From: a virus
DNA: 37,181 nucleotides
IMG/VR virus record: IMGVR_UViG_3300010413_001141
Location: 1 to 37,181 of that record
Strand: one strand, 5' to 3'
A program made the position numbers and the translations under genes. A model generated the notes under the pieces. That model was not told where the DNA came from. It searched no databases and was given only the letters and a program-made list of their open reading frames with translations. How positions within the stretch are numbered: the stretch's first letter is position 1; each line of letters begins with the position of its first letter. This document shows positions 3,109-20,817 of the stretch, one piece after another.

Positions 3109-3137
3109 ATTATATCATACGCTTGTCCTGTTTGCAA
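3109..3137 (-). promoter_or_regulatory. Putative sigma70-type promoter for the 73-aa gene
   Basis: Minus strand TTGCAA (3132-3137), 17-nt spacer, TATAAT (3109-3114). The -35 is imperfect. It overlaps the 3' end of the 477-aa gene. Confidence 0.55.
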
Positions 3138-4548
3138 GTAACGGAGGCCAAATTGAACGCGTATCGTGCAACACGACAACTGGATCGCCCTTGCGAAGCT
3201 TCCGGTTCGCGGTTGTTGCAGCGAGTACACCGCTGTATCTGCCAACACTAGGCAGACGCTCGGTGGTCATTGCCATCATCTGTGAATTTATCGCAACCAA
3301 ATACAGCGGCGCGGACGTTTCTCTCGCTGGCACAAATACCTTGCTCACACTAACGCCCAATTTCTTTGCGAATTCGCCAACGGTTGTTTCGGCGCTGTTG
3401 GCTACATAAGTAGCAAAAGTCCTATTGTCTTTGCCTCTTTTCAGAATGAGGCCACTATATTTCGGTGCCTTATACTTGAATAACTCCGACGGTGCGACTA
3501 CGCCAGGCGAATCGGACGAGCCACGAAAAGTAAACGACTTGAACTTCGATGCATATGGATACAGCCTGCTATGCATGGTATCATATGCCAGGCTTGATGC
3601 ATAACCAGGAGAGCGGTACACATCAAATGCGATGGCGTACTTCTCGGCCAGCTTTATAATGCCATCGCAAAATTCCCGCAGGCCCTTAAAGTGTCTCGTT
3701 AGCGCAACCACTAGCCGTATGCGCCCATGCTCCTTGAGAACCTTCTCCACAAGAGGCAACGCATCTGCTATGTTCACATCACCATAGCTCACATTATTTA
3801 ACAGGTAGTTGTCTTTCAATGCGCTGCGGCGCGCCATGCGTGCGCCGTTTGCGCGAAGCCCGATAAAGTATGGATCAACACCATTCTGGCGTATGTCGCA
3901 ATACGTATACCAATAGTCGGGCTGGTACAGATATTTCGTATAGTGGTACATGCGTCCTTCCATATTATCTTCTAGGATAATGACGAACGTTTCGTCAACG
4001 GTGTCCTTCGTTGTAATGTCACGCACCGTCACGTATTTCTCCGCAGACGAATTCTCGTACAGTGTCAGTGGTCCGTTTTTCCTAAAAATCTTGTCACCGC
4101 CAGAGAGAGGATACGCCGCAAAATTGCCTACTGGCAGGCTTCCTACAAGCATACGCTGCCTGCTCACCTTATTCGTTGTGCCGCGCACGACGCGTTTGCC
4201 AGTGGCTACAATTGCACCATTCTCATTCTGGACAATGCCAGGATACAATTCGCTGCTTGTCTTCGCAAGCGCGAGTTGCCTCTCCATTTTCCCGATTACC
4301 ATATCGCGAAGCTGATTGGCGTATGACGGAGGCGCACCAGTTATCTCGGCTATACTCATATCAGTCTTGCCTTTGAGCACAGCAATACTTTCTGCCACAA
4401 GGTCATAATATACCCTTGCGTTGATTGGGAAAATCACGCCCTTGCGTCCTTCCTGCACAACGATCACACCTCCGCCAGCTTCGATAAAGAAACTGGCGAT
4501 ATTGATTCCCGGCATTGCGAATGCGCTTTCTACGGCATCGTTAGGCAT
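3115..4548 (-). CDS. 477-aa protein of unknown function, last gene of the ThiF cassette
   Basis: I do not recognise this protein. It begins MPNDAVESAFAMPGINIASF. A beta-rich N-terminal part (IVVQEGRKGVIFPINARVYY) is followed by a helical stretch and a middle region with GGDKIFRKNGPLTLY and YLYQPDYWYTYCDIRQNG. A region with an alternating strand/helix look (RIRLVVALTRHFKGLREF) comes next, then a beta-rich C-terminus ending LHDTRSIWPPLLANRTSV. It has almost no cysteine and no membrane segment, unlike its two zinc-ribbon neighbours. The start is the ATG at 4546-4548 behind AAAGGAG; a longer in-frame ATG at 4572 lacks this spacing. It overlaps the stop of the upstream gene by 8 nt, so it is probably translationally coupled to the E1-containing cassette. 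Candidate roles are target, ligase-like or effector subunit, all inference. Confidence 0.85.
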   Translation of the reverse strand: MPNDAVESAFAMPGINIASFFIEAGGGVIVVQEGRKGVIFPINARVYYDLVAESIAVLKGKTDMSIAEITGAPPSYANQLRDMVIGKMERQLALAKTSSELYPGIVQNENGAIVATGKRVVRGTTNKVSRQRMLVGSLPVGNFAAYPLSGGDKIFRKNGPLTLYENSSAEKYVTVRDITTKDTVDETFVIILEDNMEGRMYHYTKYLYQPDYWYTYCDIRQNGVDPYFIGLRANGARMARRSALKDNYLLNNVSYGDVNIADALPLVEKVLKEHGRIRLVVALTRHFKGLREFCDGIIKLAEKYAIAFDVYRSPGYASSLAYDTMHSRLYPYASKFKSFTFRGSSDSPGVVAPSELFKYKAPKYSGLILKRGKDNRTFATYVANSAETTVGEFAKKLGVSVSKVFVPARETSAPLYLVAINSQMMAMTTERLPSVGRYSGVLAATTANRKLRKGDPVVVLHDTRSIWPPLLANRTSV

Positions 4549-6046
4549 TTTGGTTCTCCTTTCCTGTGCCAAGTTCTTTTGGCGGCGTATATACCTGCAT
4601 TACCATTGTCTCATCATGAGACTGTCCTTCTTTATAGAAGTCGCCAAGTAACGTATTGTCTGCATACAGACATTCTGGACAGGCGTAGCAATACACGTTC
4701 CCCCCTTCTTTGATGTGTTCCTTGTCAAGCAATCTAAAGAAGAGCGGCACATTGTGTGCTTGGCAATAGAATGTCGTTGACTCTATCCAGTTAATAGCGT
4801 TATAGCCACATCCCTCTGTCTCGCATTTCATGTTTACGATATCGCCATAGCAAAACGGGCAAATGCCCTCAAGGAAATCAATGACCCAATTGCACATGAG
4901 GCAATATTCAAAGTTCTCGACAGTGGCCGTTGGGCCACCGCATTCTGGACACTGGTTCTTTGTGGCTTGCGGAATCGACAATTCGCTCTTGTGCGCACTG
5001 CCATTTATAGGTGGCCTTCCTGCCTCCGCTGGTACAAGTGCGGAAGTATAGCCAGTCGGCTGAATGGGTATTGCGCGCTCTCGTACCTCTTTTTGCCAAT
5101 CTGTTACAGATTTCCCCTGGATGAGTGACGACCAGATTGACAGGCGTGTTCTGCCATCCTTATTGATTGCAAGCTCTTCCTTGTCGAATGCAACTTTGAT
5201 ATTGGCGTATTTGTTAATGTCGATTGCATATTCTGGTTGCTTGCCAATTTCTATAGCAATCTGCCATTCGCCGTGCAGCGCGTCTCTAGGGCCAACAAAG
5301 TCGGCATGGCCCATTCCGTAGCTTGTCGTAGTCCACTTTCCGTTAACGTTCGCGCCGCCAGTTTTGGGCTTATCATCCTTACCCTTACCCTTGTTCCAAT
5401 TCCCCAACATGACGATGCACGGACGCAGCGGCGGTTCGGCAACGAACTCAAACCTGTATGTCTCGCGAATGAACTTGGCCTGCTCGCTGTCTGGTTCTAG
5501 TTCCAGCATATCTATGAAATCTTCGTTGCTGGTGTTATTGTCTGTCATGGCCTTTGGGTTCATGCCTAGCGCCTTGGCGAATTCCCTGTGCTGGTCGCCT
5601 AGAGTTGATAGCTTTGGTACATATACGCGTGTTATTCCAAGGCCCCAAGGTACAACAAGGCCGTGAACAACGCATAGTACGTTCGCACGATCAACGCCTT
5701 CGGTAGTCACCCTTGGATGGTCCTCAAAGAATTCCTTGTCGCCATCGGTCAGCGTGCCAATGCCTAGCGATTCCATATATGTCTTTGTCGCACGGAACAC
5801 ACAGTCATTATATGTCTGCGTGATGACATAATATCTCTCCCCGCCTTCGTCTATTTTCCACATTGGCAATTGAGTGCCATCTGTTTGCACGCGCATAGAG
5901 AGAGGCTCTACGCCAGCGTCGAGTAATGCATCTGCCGCAGTGCTAGTCATATCGTGAATAACCCCGTTGTTATCCACAAGGAATCCAACAACTTTTGGCG
6001 TTGTTACCACGTCCTTGCTTGCCGGATAATGAACAACTGGTGTCAT
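4541..6046 (-). CDS. 501-aa protein with C-terminal zinc-ribbon array (ThiF cassette)
   Basis: The N-terminal 330 or so residues (from MTPVVHYPASKDVVTTPKVV) match nothing I know. The C-terminal 150 carry paired cysteines typical of zinc ribbons or treble clefs: CPECGGP with CLMCNW, CPFCYGD with CETEGCG, a lone C-x2-H (CQAH) and CYACPEC. The start is the ATG at 6044-6046 because GGGGGG lies six bases upstream and it follows the E1 stop codon by one base. Being tightly packed behind the E1-like gene suggests a shared complex. Zinc ribbons beside E1 enzymes recall the RING or treble-clef partners of prokaryotic ubiquitin-like systems, but nothing here proves ligase activity. Confidence 0.85.
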   Translation of the reverse strand: MTPVVHYPASKDVVTTPKVVGFLVDNNGVIHDMTSTAADALLDAGVEPLSMRVQTDGTQLPMWKIDEGGERYYVITQTYNDCVFRATKTYMESLGIGTLTDGDKEFFEDHPRVTTEGVDRANVLCVVHGLVVPWGLGITRVYVPKLSTLGDQHREFAKALGMNPKAMTDNNTSNEDFIDMLELEPDSEQAKFIRETYRFEFVAEPPLRPCIVMLGNWNKGKGKDDKPKTGGANVNGKWTTTSYGMGHADFVGPRDALHGEWQIAIEIGKQPEYAIDINKYANIKVAFDKEELAINKDGRTRLSIWSSLIQGKSVTDWQKEVRERAIPIQPTGYTSALVPAEAGRPPINGSAHKSELSIPQATKNQCPECGGPTATVENFEYCLMCNWVIDFLEGICPFCYGDIVNMKCETEGCGYNAINWIESTTFYCQAHNVPLFFRLLDKEHIKEGGNVYCYACPECLYADNTLLGDFYKEGQSHDETMVMQVYTPPKELGTGKENQNA

Positions 6047-6047
6047 A

Positions 6048-6752
6048 CTATTCCCCCCTGTCGTTCCCCACATACTGCGCTATGGAGTTTATGCGATATC
6101 CGTCAACTAGAACAATCCAGTTTACCATATCGCCGCCTTTCGCCATGTTGCCAGTAAGCGAAGTTACAATACCAATAGGATCGTGCGCGCTCAGGTAGAC
6201 GAATAGCGAGATCGCCGCGCCCTCACATACCGCTGCGGAGAAGACCCTTGTGCCAATTAGTTCACACGCTGGCTTTTTTTCCTCATCCACCTTGTAGTTC
6301 TGCGCGTTTGCAAATGGCATCGTGCTTACTTCCCCGCTTGACCACGCTACCAAGCCTCCCGTAAACGAAAGACCAAGATCAAGATACGGGATATCGTTCT
6401 CCATCGCGTAGTTGTGTAGTAACAGCCGCGTCTCCACATTGTCAAGCGCGCCGACGATCACGGTGCTGCCTTTCAGCATCCACACACTCTTTTCTGTGAG
6501 GCGCATCGGGCGCTTCGTGACTGGAATGCCAGCGGATTCATATACACGCGCAACAACATCGACCTTTGCGTTACCAATCTCTTGAGGTACACCAAGGTCA
6601 CTTGGCGAGTTGCGCTTTTCTACAGTGTCGTGATCTATCAACACAACGTCTGTTTCGTAGGCAAGAGATACAATGTACGCAGAAAGAGCACGCGCAAGCA
6701 TCGAACCCAATAGGCCACACCCAACAATTGATATCCTAGAGTTTAATGACAT
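6048..6752 (-). CDS. ThiF/MoeB/E1-like adenylyltransferase
   Basis: A 234-residue E1-superfamily protein. Known members activate the C-terminus of a ubiquitin-like or other small protein by adenylation. Visible motifs are VGCGLLGSMLARAL (residues 10-23, Rossmann nucleotide loop), VLIDHDTVEKRN (37-48, acidic residues and Arg-Asn), GNAKVDVVA (60-68, catalytic-type Lys) and VGALDNVETR (100-109, the D-x-x-x-TR site). Cys163 (PACELIGTR) and Cys176 are candidates for a thioester cysteine; the usual C-x2-C zinc pairs are absent. It is short, an E1 core without the extra domains of eukaryotic E1. AGGAGG precedes the ATG. It sits between two zinc-ribbon genes and downstream of a gene for an abundant small protein, the usual company of a conjugation or sulfur-transfer cassette. 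Confidence 0.9.
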   Translation of the reverse strand: MSLNSRISIVGCGLLGSMLARALSAYIVSLAYETDVVLIDHDTVEKRNSPSDLGVPQEIGNAKVDVVARVYESAGIPVTKRPMRLTEKSVWMLKGSTVIVGALDNVETRLLLHNYAMENDIPYLDLGLSFTGGLVAWSSGEVSTMPFANAQNYKVDEEKKPACELIGTRVFSAAVCEGAAISLFVYLSAHDPIGIVTSLTGNMAKGGDMVNWIVLVDGYRINSIAQYVGNDRGE

Positions 6753-7887
6753 TGTACGCTACCTCCTGTTGTCCTTTCGAATAGAACATATTGTATTGCT
6801 TATTGTGTTCGTCGTGCGTTGGCTTGATCGCCACTGTGGCACCGCACTTGCAAAAACCAGGAGTGCTAGAGGCGCAAGCCTTGTCGCCGCAGCTATCACA
6901 TACGTATGCCAATGATTGCCCACAGTTCTTGCAATACGTGTGCCGTCTAGCTTCGTATGTCGAACAATCCCACCCGCACTTGCAAGTGCTGTATGGCTTG
7001 GGCAGCATGCTGCCACAGTGAGAGCAGTACATACCAATGAGGCCAAGACCAAGGCTGCTCGACATTGCCTTTACAAGATACTGGAATGCCTGATCGCCAG
7101 GGTCGCTTCCTGGTTTGAACGTCTCGCCATACTTTGCAAAGATATCCTTGCCACTCTGTCGTTCCATCCAGAATAGTCTCAATGATGTAAGTGCCCACGA
7201 GCCAACGGTTTGCCCCTGAGTCATAGACGCAAGATGAATATGCCCATCGCCATATGAATCATAACCGTCTCGCTGGCACCACTTTGACGCAACGAAACCA
7301 GTGGGCCAAGGGAACTCTTTCGGCACACCGCGCCTGCGTGTGTGGAATCCATCCCACATTGGCTTCGTTAGCCAATACACTACATTCCAGTCTGGACTAA
7401 GTGGATCAAGGCCCCCGATATCAAAGATGGTTGCAACAGCAACTCCATCGAAAATCAGCGGCGAGCCGAAACGCATACCAATGTTGTCGGGCGTGCTCTT
7501 CATATTCCCGTCGGATATGTAGTATATCTTGCGCAGGTGTGTGCCCCTGATCTCAACGTCGTTGCCAAAGTATTGCTCAAGGTCTTTCTGCACCATGCGC
7601 CTTTCTGCCGACGCGTCAACAAACTCATGCCTGGACACACGCGGCTTGATCCATCCATTCCGCTGATCGATATGCCCAACGCCTTTTCTCATTGCTGCCA
7701 TGATTGCATCTTGCACCTTGCGATCCCTTGTGACGAATTGCTCGGTGGCAAGCTGAGTAACCTTGTCATATACATGCATGCGCAAGCAGTGTTTCCTAAG
7801 ATACACCATTCCACCGCTGGCAATGCTCATGGTGTCGGTGTCGAACAACTCTGACTCTTTACCATCGCGCAGAGTGACAAGTGCCAT
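6736..7887 (-). CDS. 383-aa protein with C-terminal zinc-ribbon array (ThiF cassette)
   Basis: First gene after the terminator in the cassette. Residues 1-285 are of unknown fold. Residues 286-350 are dense in cysteine: C288/C291, C302/C304/C308, C319/C322, C330/C333/C338 and C346/C348, so several zinc ribbons. Within the N-terminal region, EFPWPTGF (191-198) followed about 15 residues later by YGDGHIHLASM (212-222) loosely recalls the proline-rich strand and the G-x-I-C-L active-site turn of E2/RWD-fold proteins, with His where E2 has Cys. That is a weak, eye-level resemblance only. AAGGAGG lies five bases before the ATG. It overlaps the E1 gene by 17 nt. Confidence 0.85.
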   Translation of the reverse strand: MALVTLRDGKESELFDTDTMSIASGGMVYLRKHCLRMHVYDKVTQLATEQFVTRDRKVQDAIMAAMRKGVGHIDQRNGWIKPRVSRHEFVDASAERRMVQKDLEQYFGNDVEIRGTHLRKIYYISDGNMKSTPDNIGMRFGSPLIFDGVAVATIFDIGGLDPLSPDWNVVYWLTKPMWDGFHTRRRGVPKEFPWPTGFVASKWCQRDGYDSYGDGHIHLASMTQGQTVGSWALTSLRLFWMERQSGKDIFAKYGETFKPGSDPGDQAFQYLVKAMSSSLGLGLIGMYCSHCGSMLPKPYSTCKCGWDCSTYEARRHTYCKNCGQSLAYVCDSCGDKACASSTPGFCKCGATVAIKPTHDEHNKQYNMFYSKGQQEVAYNVIKL

Positions 7888-8001: not shown

Positions 8002-8454
8002 CTAGGCAGCATGCCCGAACGGGGCGGCTGCGATAACGGTCCAGATGGTCCCGTCGTTCGGAACCTCAACTGCGGTCGGCATCAGGTTGGAGCGCGCGAT
8101 GTAGAACTTGTCAGTGCCGGGGTCAGTCTCGGCAATGACAAAATCCTTCTCGTCTTGCAGATAGACGCAGATAGCGTCCACGATCTGCTCGACGAGTGGC
8201 TTGGTGCCAGATTTCTCCACGCTCGCCGCCAGGGTAGCCAGCGCCTTCTTCAGTTCGTCGCCGGACAGTCCCTTGAGTTCGTTCCAGTCCTGGTCCTTCT
8301 GGTCCTCCGGCACGCCGTCGCCGTACTCGCTCATAAAAGCCTTCAGGTTGGCGTCCAGGTCAACCGCACGAGTCGTGCGCCCCTGCCCGGTGGAACTGTT
8401 CACTCCGCTGATGATAACATGCAGCCGATCAGAATCCTTCACTACGTTTGCCAT
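8002..8454 (-). CDS. 150-aa small, probably abundant protein; candidate partner/substrate of the ThiF cassette
   Basis: The product starts MANVVKDSDRLHVIISGVN and ends TVIAAAPFGHAA. An N-terminal beta segment (LHVIISGV...RTTRAVDLDA) is followed by an acidic helical middle (DWNELKGLSGDELKKALATL) and a beta-rich C-terminal part. I recognise no family. The gene is clearly more GC-rich than its neighbours and avoids the AGG/AGA and ATA codons they favour, like the capsid gene, so strong expression is likely. It has its own promoter (8512-8540), AGGAGG within a palindrome that could mask it, and a terminator after it. Being the first, amplified gene ahead of an E1-like enzyme suggests it could be the activated small protein, but it lacks the usual C-terminal Gly-Gly. 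That role is inference. Confidence 0.85.
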   Translation of the reverse strand: MANVVKDSDRLHVIISGVNSSTGQGRTTRAVDLDANLKAFMSEYGDGVPEDQKDQDWNELKGLSGDELKKALATLAASVEKSGTKPLVEQIVDAICVYLQDEKDFVIAETDPGTDKFYIARSNLMPTAVEVPNDGTIWTVIAAAPFGHAA

Positions 8455-19115: not shown

Positions 19116-19117
19116 AA

Positions 19118-19191
19118 TCCCCCTGGTAGGATTCGAACCTACACAGATACGATCTTAAATCGCACGCCTCTGCCAGTTGGGCCACAGGGGG
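19118..19191 (-). tRNA. tRNA-Leu (anticodon UAA) with a short variable loop
   Basis: The minus strand gives a 74-nt cloverleaf: acceptor CCCCCTG/CAGGGGG, anticodon stem TGCGA/TCGTA with loop TTTAAGA (anticodon TAA), T arm GTAGG-TTCGAAT-CCTAC, discriminator A. CCA is not encoded. The variable loop is only five bases (TCTGT), whereas bacterial tRNA-Leu normally has a long class II arm. It would read UUA codons. Confidence 0.88.
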
Positions 19192-19198
19192 AATTACA

Positions 19199-19405
19199 TT
19201 ACTTGATTAGGAATCCTTCCTCATCCATGAAGTCTTCTCTCTTTACGCTTGCTATAATATCGCTTACGCTGTTTGCTAGATAGTTTCCTAGCTTAGTATA
19301 CCATATACTTTCTTCCCACTCTTCGCAATCTTCACACGATAAATATGCTTCCGTGTCGTATGATAGTTCTATAGCTAATTTGCCACCGCATTTTGGACAC
19401 TTCAT
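19199..19405 (-). CDS. 68-aa zinc-ribbon protein
   Basis: The N-terminus MKCPKCGGKLAIEL and then YLSCEDCEEW give two C-x2-C knuckles, a classic single zinc ribbon. The acidic C-terminal half ends DFMDEEGFLIK. The ATG directly follows the stop of the 65-aa gene and GGAGG lies just upstream. Small zinc ribbons like this are common in phages; the role is unknown. Confidence 0.75.
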   Translation of the reverse strand: MKCPKCGGKLAIELSYDTEAYLSCEDCEEWEESIWYTKLGNYLANSVSDIIASVKREDFMDEEGFLIK

Positions 19406-19903: not shown

Positions 19904-20002
19904 AAGGGAAAAACTAATATGGCTACGCCATGCGTCGCGTAGCGACGCGTTAAATTCGTTTGCTATTAAGCGCAAGTCTTTCTATTGGCGCTAATACACA
20001 AA
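19904..20002 (-). other. Intergenic region with two compact hairpins
   Basis: No gene seen. In this gap ATGGC-GTA-GCCAT and GCGTCGC-TAC-GCGACGC (7 bp) lie side by side at about 19920-19950, between the end of the structured RNA and tRNA-Ala. They may be processing or stability elements. No clear promoter for the tRNA-Ala/DUF3310 unit is visible. Confidence 0.5.
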
Positions 20003-20029
20003 CCCCCCTTCTCGGAATGAAAAGGGAGG
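20003..20029 (-). terminator. Terminator hairpin of the structured RNA
   Basis: An 11-bp stem with a 5-nt loop followed on the minus strand by TTTGTGTATT. Two positions pair as G-U only in the minus transcript and would be C-A on the plus strand, which fixes its direction. Confidence 0.75.
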
Positions 20030-20329
20030 ATATTGCAAGACACCTAATTTAGAACTAGGGCGATCCAGGTCGTTACGCAGGTGGGTTATTCCTGCTAATT
20101 TACTCTATCTTGCAATCCCCGGCTGGAAGCCAACGGACGGGATGTGTGTGTATTTTACGAATACGGTCACTCTGGATTTTTAGAACCCTTCTGCATTGTC
20201 AACACTGAGCAGATCAGCGTCGATATATAGCTGGTTCAATCGACTCCCGCTAAACGGGCAACCACTACGCTTTCGCTGCCTGGGTCTTATGGCGTGAAAA
20301 ATATGTACAACATTCCAGCGTTTTGTTGG
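20003..20329 (-). ncRNA. Structured non-coding RNA of about 325 nt, family unknown
   Basis: A consensus promoter (20336-20364) points into a stretch with no credible ORF on the minus strand. The transcript ends at a strong hairpin. Visible helices include GGCA...TGCC enclosing the stable GCGAAAGC mini-hairpin, CCCG-TTTAG-CGGG, GTCGAT...ATCGAC, ATCCC...GGGAT enclosing GGC-TTCCA-GCC, and a 9-bp closing helix (20032-20040 with 20108-20116). That helix encloses GCAGG...CCTGC and CCTAG-TTCTAAA-TTAGG, the latter like a tRNA T arm. It is not tmRNA, RNase P RNA or 6S by the motifs I know, and is shorter than GOLLD or ROOL. Location beside tRNAs is typical of large phage RNAs. Confidence 0.7.
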
Positions 20330-20335
20330 TTACAT

Positions 20336-20364
20336 ATTATACTCGAAAAGTTGCGATTTGTCAA
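20336..20364 (-). promoter_or_regulatory. Sigma70-type promoter of the structured RNA
   Basis: Minus strand TTGACA (20359-20364), 17-nt spacer AATCGCAACTTTTCGAG, TATAAT (20336-20341). Predicted start near 20329. Conserved-spacer family. Confidence 0.88.
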
Positions 20365-20374
20365 CATGGACTTT

Positions 20375-20752
20375 TTATGGGAACCACACCTGTTTTTCTA
20401 ATCGTTTTGCTGCCATTACTACCGGATCGCCACGGTCAAACGCCATTACGGCGTCGGAGTATTCTACGATTTGTCTTATGTATTTGCTTTTTGGTGTGGA
20501 AGTTACAGTTATGCCGTTTACTGCGTCTATATGTTTACCTTGTACCATATCTATGTCAGGGATGAACATATTTACAGTGTAGCCATGTTCTGTCGCGATA
20601 TTTGCGATTTGAATTGATGGCGCTGTATATCCAACGATAACGAGCATCTCGTCGCCGTATTTTTTACGCGCCGCTTCAAACGCGCCATTTAGTATGCTGT
20701 TTCTTTCTGGCGACCATGCCGTTGCAGTTACTAATATTTTCCTGTCTGGCAT
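20375..20752 (-). CDS. SLOG / DUF2493-like Rossmann-type protein
   Basis: A 125-residue protein, first gene of the left arm. ILVTATAWSPERNSI, MLVIVGYTAPSIQIANIATEHGY and the C-terminal KYIRQIVEYSDAVMAFDRGD followed by MAAKRLEKQVWFP match the layout of DUF2493/YspA-type proteins of the SLOG nucleotide-binding superfamily. The Gly-rich loop is weak (VGYTAPS instead of GGA.G.D). Such proteins may sense or process nucleotide derivatives; in phages the role is unknown. It has its own promoter and a GGGGG ribosome site, and is transcribed divergently from the terminase genes. Confidence 0.7.
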   Translation of the reverse strand: MPDRKILVTATAWSPERNSILNGAFEAARKKYGDEMLVIVGYTAPSIQIANIATEHGYTVNMFIPDIDMVQGKHIDAVNGITVTSTPKSKYIRQIVEYSDAVMAFDRGDPVVMAAKRLEKQVWFP

Positions 20753-20788: not shown

Positions 20789-20817
20789 ATTATACAAGAA
20801 ATGTTGCTTTTTGTCAA
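20789..20817 (-). promoter_or_regulatory. Sigma70-type leftward promoter for the SLOG-like gene
   Basis: Minus strand TTGACA (20812-20817), 17-nt spacer AAAAGCAACATTTCTTG, TATAAT (20789-20794). The -10 is embedded in a perfect palindrome, TTGTATAATATACAA, a possible operator. It is back to back with the terminase promoter. Confidence 0.88.

Follow-up and report, generated by a model that had tools for sequence, protein, structure and literature searches.

The window, by which we mean the whole 37,181-nucleotide stretch that was analysed, a 37-kb piece of a virus record, encodes a structured RNA on its minus strand, running from 20329 to 20003. The RNA lies between two groups of genes. Early genes on the minus strand encode a CCA-adding enzyme, an RlaP-type nucleotidyltransferase, RecA, a beta clamp and SSB, together with ribonucleotide reductase, dUTPase, a Cas4-like exonuclease and DNA methyltransferases; the terminase and portal genes are on the plus strand. 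The initial annotation had proposed an RNA at 20003-20329 without stating its strand; the coordinates are correct and the strand is minus. Reading along that strand, the order is promoter (20364-20336), RNA (20329-20003) and tRNA-Ala (19903-19827), and the features of the locus are as follows.

20873 onward, plus strand: terminase and portal genes
20375-20752, minus strand: orf125, always the next gene upstream of the RNA, with its own promoter at 20817; SLOG-like Rossmann fold (predicted)
20336-20364, minus strand: promoter, -35 TTGACA (20364-20359), 17-nt spacer, -10 TATAAT (20341-20336), 12/12; start expected near 20329
20003-20329, minus strand: structured RNA, length about 325 nt, starting near 20329 and with an uncertain 3' end; supported by covariation and by homologues in the corresponding locus of L002 (= L006), L003, L004 and L005
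19827-19903, minus strand: tRNA-Ala(UGC) gene, about 100 nt downstream of the RNA, probably in the same transcription unit
427, 16090, 20364 and 20817, minus strand, and 20835, plus strand: five perfect promoters, the four on the minus strand carrying an extended motif

The promoter described earlier as near-consensus is in fact a 12/12 match (TTGACA-17-TATAAT), one of five in the window where 0.1 would be expected by chance. It shares the extended motif TTGACAAA..GCA..TTTC...TATAATAT with the three other minus-strand promoters, and its -10 and the GACAAA are kept at the same position in L005, L002 and L003. These four promoters, which likely constitute an early-promoter class, head the tRNA-Trp/CCA-enzyme/RlaP region, the dUTPase/reductase unit, orf125 and the structured RNA. 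From 20364 down to 16090 the promoter scan found no further minus-strand promoter of at least 10/12. Transcription from the promoter of the RNA, running through its terminal helix P11, therefore probably supplies the genes from tRNA-Ala to 16098, and this promoter probably drives a whole early unit of RNA, tRNA-Ala and later genes. An open reading frame had been reported to be absent, and none of note exists: the longest open stretch on the RNA strand is 49 codons. Upstream, orf125 has orthologues in 5/5 phages (29-51% identity), and its AlphaFold model (pLDDT 90; Foldseek matches at E about 2e-4) is a predicted Rossmann fold resembling DprA, LOG and Moco carrier proteins, SLOG-like, any partnership with the RNA being hypothetical. 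Elsewhere on the minus strand, a ThiF/E1-like protein (6048-6752) adjoins three large proteins of 485, 510 and 383 aa within 3115-7887, which have no Pfam or PHROG match and have counterparts in a related phage (G002), and a short zinc-ribbon protein (19199-19405) resembles the restriction-alleviation protein Lar at a score below threshold. The phage RecA is 38-44% identical to, and about equally distant from, those of a dozen bacterial genomes of different phyla, and the host was not identified.

Relatives were sought in IMG/VR with the terminase as bait, which yielded five contigs, two of which (L002 and L006) are one phage from two samples. The RNA is present in all four further distinct phages (L002, L003, L005 and the distant L004), in the same place and on the same strand, between orf125 and the early genes, and as a single copy in each record searched. 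Its core, from P2a to P8, is 59-84% identical overall; the window sequence is 73-80% identical to L002, L003 and L005 and 61% to L004. Within the interval from orf125 to the region preceding the tRNA, the RNA alone is alignable at the DNA level, with no BLAST match to either side. The RNA gene measures about 310 nt in the group and about 325 nt in the window, and the alignable unit across window and relatives is about 310-370 nt. A covariance model of the P7-P10 domain (R1), built from four sequences without L004, recovers the left-out L004 with 73 bits (E 2e-16). Comparison of the five phages establishes a conserved locus with a promoter and without a reading frame in one phage lineage. L004 is informative in another respect: it has no tRNA in its 14 kb and a different downstream order, so that the reported position beside a tRNA gene holds in 4/5 phages and fails in L004, where the RNA is retained with P2b and P11 rebuilt. 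Retention and elaboration of the RNA where there is no tRNA argues that it is not a mere tRNA leader and is independent of the neighbouring tRNA.

Beyond this lineage the searches were negative. Four additional scans of IMG/VR with DNA patterns, and a terminase scan guided by an alignment, returned the same contigs only, the remaining IMG/VR pattern matches being rejected as chance matches within genes or other sequence. BLAST searches of 50,697 phage and 72,556 plasmid records turned up no real match, the hits of a pattern scan in 84,980 genomes were about as many as expected by chance, and R1 found nothing significant in the 80 of those loci to which it was applied. R1 also found none in 593 genomes from the phyla of G006 (cyanobacterial) and G009 (Chloroflexota), a search for which there was no positive control. 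At a permissive Rfam setting (E<=10), the window, L004 and L005 have no match apart from chance scores; the sub-threshold Acido-Lenti-1 (E 2.5), c-di-GMP-I (E 2) and cow-rumen-3 (E 3.3) were rejected as such. No description of such an RNA was found in the limited part of the literature that was searched.

Is the fold real? The initial annotation inferred dense helices from a single sequence, which is no proof: in folding energy the window RNA outdoes chance by only a modest margin (minus strand z -2.4, plus strand +0.1), and the relatives range from z -2.0 to -3.8 on the minus strand with the plus strand sometimes equally good. Folding energy alone would therefore not settle the matter, but comparison does. 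Covariation was counted on a structure-blind MAFFT alignment (A4) under a model of 13 helices and 55 pairs, including four pseudoknots that were found by a systematic search for conserved complementarity and by hand inspection. Under this model 98.2% of cells are paired, 25 of the 55 pairs are doubly changed (shuffled mean 8.2; 0/500 shuffles as high), and the covariation score is 0.436 against 0.171 for shuffled alignments. In slid controls, with partners moved by 1-3 columns, only 32-43% of cells remain paired and 2-4 pairs doubly changed. The paired set contains 5 G-U and 0 A-C cells, a bias indicating that the folded molecule is the minus-strand transcript. Covariation so far above the shuffled and slid controls means that the RNA fold is real and selected. 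The evidence comes from just five distinct sequences; by the per-pair table, roughly half of the double changes fall on the L004 branch alone and about half are independent of it; and several helices were selected on the same alignment that was later used for counting. P1 and P11 were misaligned by MAFFT and fitted by hand, and are hence weaker evidence. The elements, all on the minus strand, are given below from 5' to 3'.

20308-20328: P1 hairpin, CAACA/UGUUG (UGACA/UGUCA and UGAUA/UAUCA in relatives); 5/5 pairs doubly changed, hand alignment
20278-20293: P2a hairpin, GCC-(AUAAGACCCA)-GGC (GCA/UGC in L004); one compensatory pair
20269-20276: P2b mini-hairpin GC(GAAA)GC, 4 bp in relatives, with a long insertion in L004; two shared pairs without covariation
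20246-20258: P3 hairpin, CCC..GGG; two compensatory pairs
20219-20244: P4 hairpin, GUCGAU/AUCGAC; four compensatory pairs
20204-20218: P5 hairpin; three compensatory pairs
20213-20209 with 20194-20190: PK3, P5 loop UCUGC with GCAGA; three compensatory pairs, the best-supported pseudoknot
20185-20188 with 20086-20083: PK1, GGGU with ACCC in the P9 loop (GGAU/AUCC in L004); one compensatory pair
20172-20176 with 20068-20064: PK2, UCCAG with CUGGA (CCCAG/CUGGG in L004); one compensatory pair
20150-20164: P6 hairpin, variable in sequence and length; differing yet paired in window, L003 and L004
20132-20135 with 20074-20071: PK4, CGUU with AACG (GGUU/AACC in L004); one compensatory pair
20121-20131: P7 hairpin, GGC/GCC, part of the 13-helix model
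20033-20115: P8-P10 domain; P8, UUGCAAGA (20115-20108) with UCUUGCAA (20040-20033), encloses P9 (20095-20077) and P10 (20059-20043)
20003-20029: P11 terminal helix; wholly different in sequence in L004 yet paired, 7/8 pairs doubly changed, hand-fitted

As far as comparison of sequences can establish it, about eleven helices and four pseudoknots make up a compact fold of the RNA that compensatory change has preserved, and the predicted 3' domain (P8 with P9 and P10), which is the most conserved domain and was the basis of R1, contacts three upstream single strands. PK3 occurs as UCUGG/UCAGA, UCUAA/UUAGA and UCCUG/CAGGA in the relatives; PK1, PK2 and PK4 are each supported by a single compensatory pair, which belongs to the L004 branch. 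Around the pseudoknots are long invariant stretches without pairing (GUAGAGUAAA, CCCGUC and AAAAA), as is typical of a tertiary core. Pairing of the P2a loop CCA with UGG was dropped in favour of UCCAG with CUGGA, which has a compensatory change, and an extension of P9 (UUA/UAA) was rejected because it competes with PK4 and lacks covariation.

Not every detail of the first description is shared by the family. The GCGAAAGC mini-hairpin, P2b, exists in the window and is not conserved, its loop being AUGUA or ACAU in L002 and L003, and the loop likened to a tRNA T-arm is present only in the window, L003 having a 4-nt loop in its place. The proposed terminator corresponds to a helix, P11, that is conserved in 5/5 phages; comparison with the relatives lends no support to a function in termination. 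In the window, P11 (20029-20003) is followed by the tail TTTGTGTATT and is terminator-like, and it is so only there: L003, L004 and L005 have no U-run directly after it, and a terminator scan of L002 found only a shifted stem, ending in ATCAATTTTG. Termination at P11 is therefore unproven. The central proposal, an undescribed and highly structured phage RNA, stands on the two checks that could be made: no Rfam match under permissive settings, and abundant compensatory changes in the homologues. There are no transcript data, and we are nevertheless close to certain that this is a real, structured and undescribed phage RNA.

The lineage is rich in tRNA biology. A relative of 60.7 kb (G001) carries some 25 tRNA genes, all on one strand and scattered among small ORFs, that serve 19 amino acids, together with an RNA ligase and homologues of the CCA-adding region of the window (tblastx). 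The tRNAs of G001/G002 (L118:1664-12224, L115:34-6715 and L002:6478-8254) cover 19/20 amino acids, with none found for Cys, and mostly stand alone between small ORFs. Together with the CCA-adding enzyme, the RlaP-type nucleotidyltransferase and the RNA ligase, they almost provide the phage with its own means of supplying and repairing tRNAs. An 86-nt tRNA-like gene on the minus strand of L118 (14429-14514) and L115 (2192-2277) has a long variable arm and no readable anticodon, a stem CUAGG closing GGAUAA, and is possibly an odd or non-canonical tRNA. Bacterial leucine tRNAs have a long variable arm; a 76-nt tRNA with a UAA anticodon on the minus strand of the window (19117-19192), called as Leu and conserved in L002, L003 and L005, is without one. 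Just upstream of tRNA-Ala are small GC-rich hairpins (window 19919-19943; L005 8330-8370; L002 about 8270-8300; L003 3520-3545), with GUA, GUAA or GCAA loops (GCGUAGC-like) and differing sequences in the four phages, which are perhaps processing or pausing sites.

What could such an RNA do during infection? One answer is that it acts in cis as a leader, either by antitermination on the nascent early transcript, like the HK022 put RNA, or by pacing or processing the tRNA-Ala/early-gene transcript. It is the first element after its promoter, with no other minus-strand promoter of at least 10/12 down to 16090, as would be required of a put- or EAR-type element; it is always on the early-gene strand; and hairpins lie between it and the tRNA. 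Put-type elements, however, are far smaller than this long four-pseudoknot fold, no RNA of this kind follows the other three early promoters, there being a single copy per genome, and L004 keeps the RNA with a different downstream order and without tRNA-Ala. We regard a cis-acting leader as unlikely, if still worth keeping in mind. The strong early promoter would also suit a decoy or regulator directed against the host, blocking or soaking up RNA polymerase, a defence nuclease or a ribosome factor, and viral stable RNAs often work in this way; but the single long hairpin of 6S RNA is missing, there is no Rfam match to 6S or CsrB-type RNAs, and the simple repeated sites usual for such RNAs are not seen, which makes this answer quite improbable.

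A near-complete, scattered set of tRNAs, accompanied by CCA-adding and repair enzymes, is a setting in which a processing RNA would make sense, and RNase P was weighed seriously given this tRNA load. An RNase P RNA that has diverged strongly, or a different ribozyme that matures the many single phage tRNAs, would fit in size, and AAANUCC is present in 5/5 sequences. CR-I and CR-V are universal RNase P RNA motifs that form P4, yet neither CR-I (GGAAANUCC) nor CR-V (ACAGAA/GGCUUA) is found in any of the five sequences; Rfam gives no match at E<=10, and the order of helices and pseudoknots is unlike P2/P4. RNase P was rejected on the absent motifs, and any such ribozyme, whose cleavage activity is purely hypothetical, is very unlikely. 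The RNA is also 550 bp from the terminase genes, which with orf125 adjoin it in 5/5 phages, raising the idea of a DNA or packaging element: a replication origin, a packaging site or a phi29-like pRNA. The terminase, though, is an ordinary large subunit (phrog_675) and not a phi29 ATPase, and the G-U bias and the RNA's own promoter point to an RNA made from one strand, so that this last idea is barely credible.

We slightly favour an undescribed family of structured non-coding RNA, carried by one phage lineage, that would be stable and trans-acting, its function being inferred. The host RNA polymerase would transcribe it early, as the first element of a unit extending into tRNA-Ala and DNA-metabolism genes; it would be cut out or stop near P11, its mature 3' end possibly arising by processing, and would remain stable and abundant, acting in trans as RNA or RNP, most likely in the translation or tRNA programme of the phage, a role also suspected for GOLLD and ROOL. 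In the absence of transcript data, a stable trans-acting RNA with that particular link may be given an even chance, and association alone is the basis for inferring action in trans and a connection with translation. That an elaborate fold has been kept through evolution means that the RNA very probably has its own job during infection. A bolder proposal, a new catalytic RNA or RNA machine with a four-pseudoknot core of about 300 nt that would process, guard or load tRNAs or seize ribosomes, is tentative and more doubtful than probable. RNAs so complex outside all described families are rare, and OLE, GOLLD and ROOL are reference problems for RNA structure and function. The present RNA is of a length amenable to synthesis, probing and cryo-EM, five natural variants already fix most of its fold, and the phages that host it carry their own tRNA, tRNA-end and RNA-repair genes, so that the question of whether ornate phage RNAs have a part in translation can be put to a definite system.

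How does it compare with known RNAs? The earlier statement that no tmRNA, RNase P RNA or 6S signature is seen proved sound. Like tmRNA, 6S RNA and SRP RNA, stable bacterial RNAs of 100-400 nt, it lies within that size range, but none of these matches in Rfam at E<=10; ARAGORN found no tmRNA in the window or relatives, the tRNA-like ends and tag frame of a tmRNA are lacking, and it is not one long hairpin with a central bubble like 6S RNA. It resembles bacterial RNase P RNA in size, tRNA-rich setting and a long-range pseudoknotted core, and differs in lacking both its motifs and an Rfam match. The HEARO or omega RNAs of IscB-type nucleases, found in mobile DNA, are likewise about 300 nt with several hairpins and pseudoknots, but there is no Rfam HEARO match, no guide-like variable end, and, in those proteins of the window that were scanned, nothing resembling IscB, TnpB or Cas12. 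The stable RNAs C and D of T4, made from the phage tRNA region and of unknown function, are much shorter and comparable only by analogy. Our best reading is that the RNA may be functionally akin to GOLLD and ROOL, while being unrelated to them and half the size, which accords with the earlier remark that both are clearly longer. ROOL (about 659 nt) lies near tRNA islands, has several pseudoknots and has no known protein partner (PMC12286853); the window RNA is likewise phage-borne, near tRNA islands and pseudoknotted, but it is about 310 nt, without an Rfam match or sequence resemblance to ROOL. GOLLD is mostly >800 nt, rises during lysis and is reported to bind ribosomes in pull-downs, and like ROOL it occurs near tRNA islands (PMC12286853), a setting comparable to the tRNA-rich lineage of the window. 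A homo-oligomeric nanocage is a further hallmark of GOLLD. Although the present RNA, at about 310 nt, has another helix order and no Rfam GOLLD match at the gathering score or E<=10, and its alignable unit does not reach the roughly 800 nt with a conserved 3' domain that GOLLD requires, it shares with GOLLD the character of a phage or prophage RNA without a reading frame, elaborately folded, often near tRNA genes and of unknown function.
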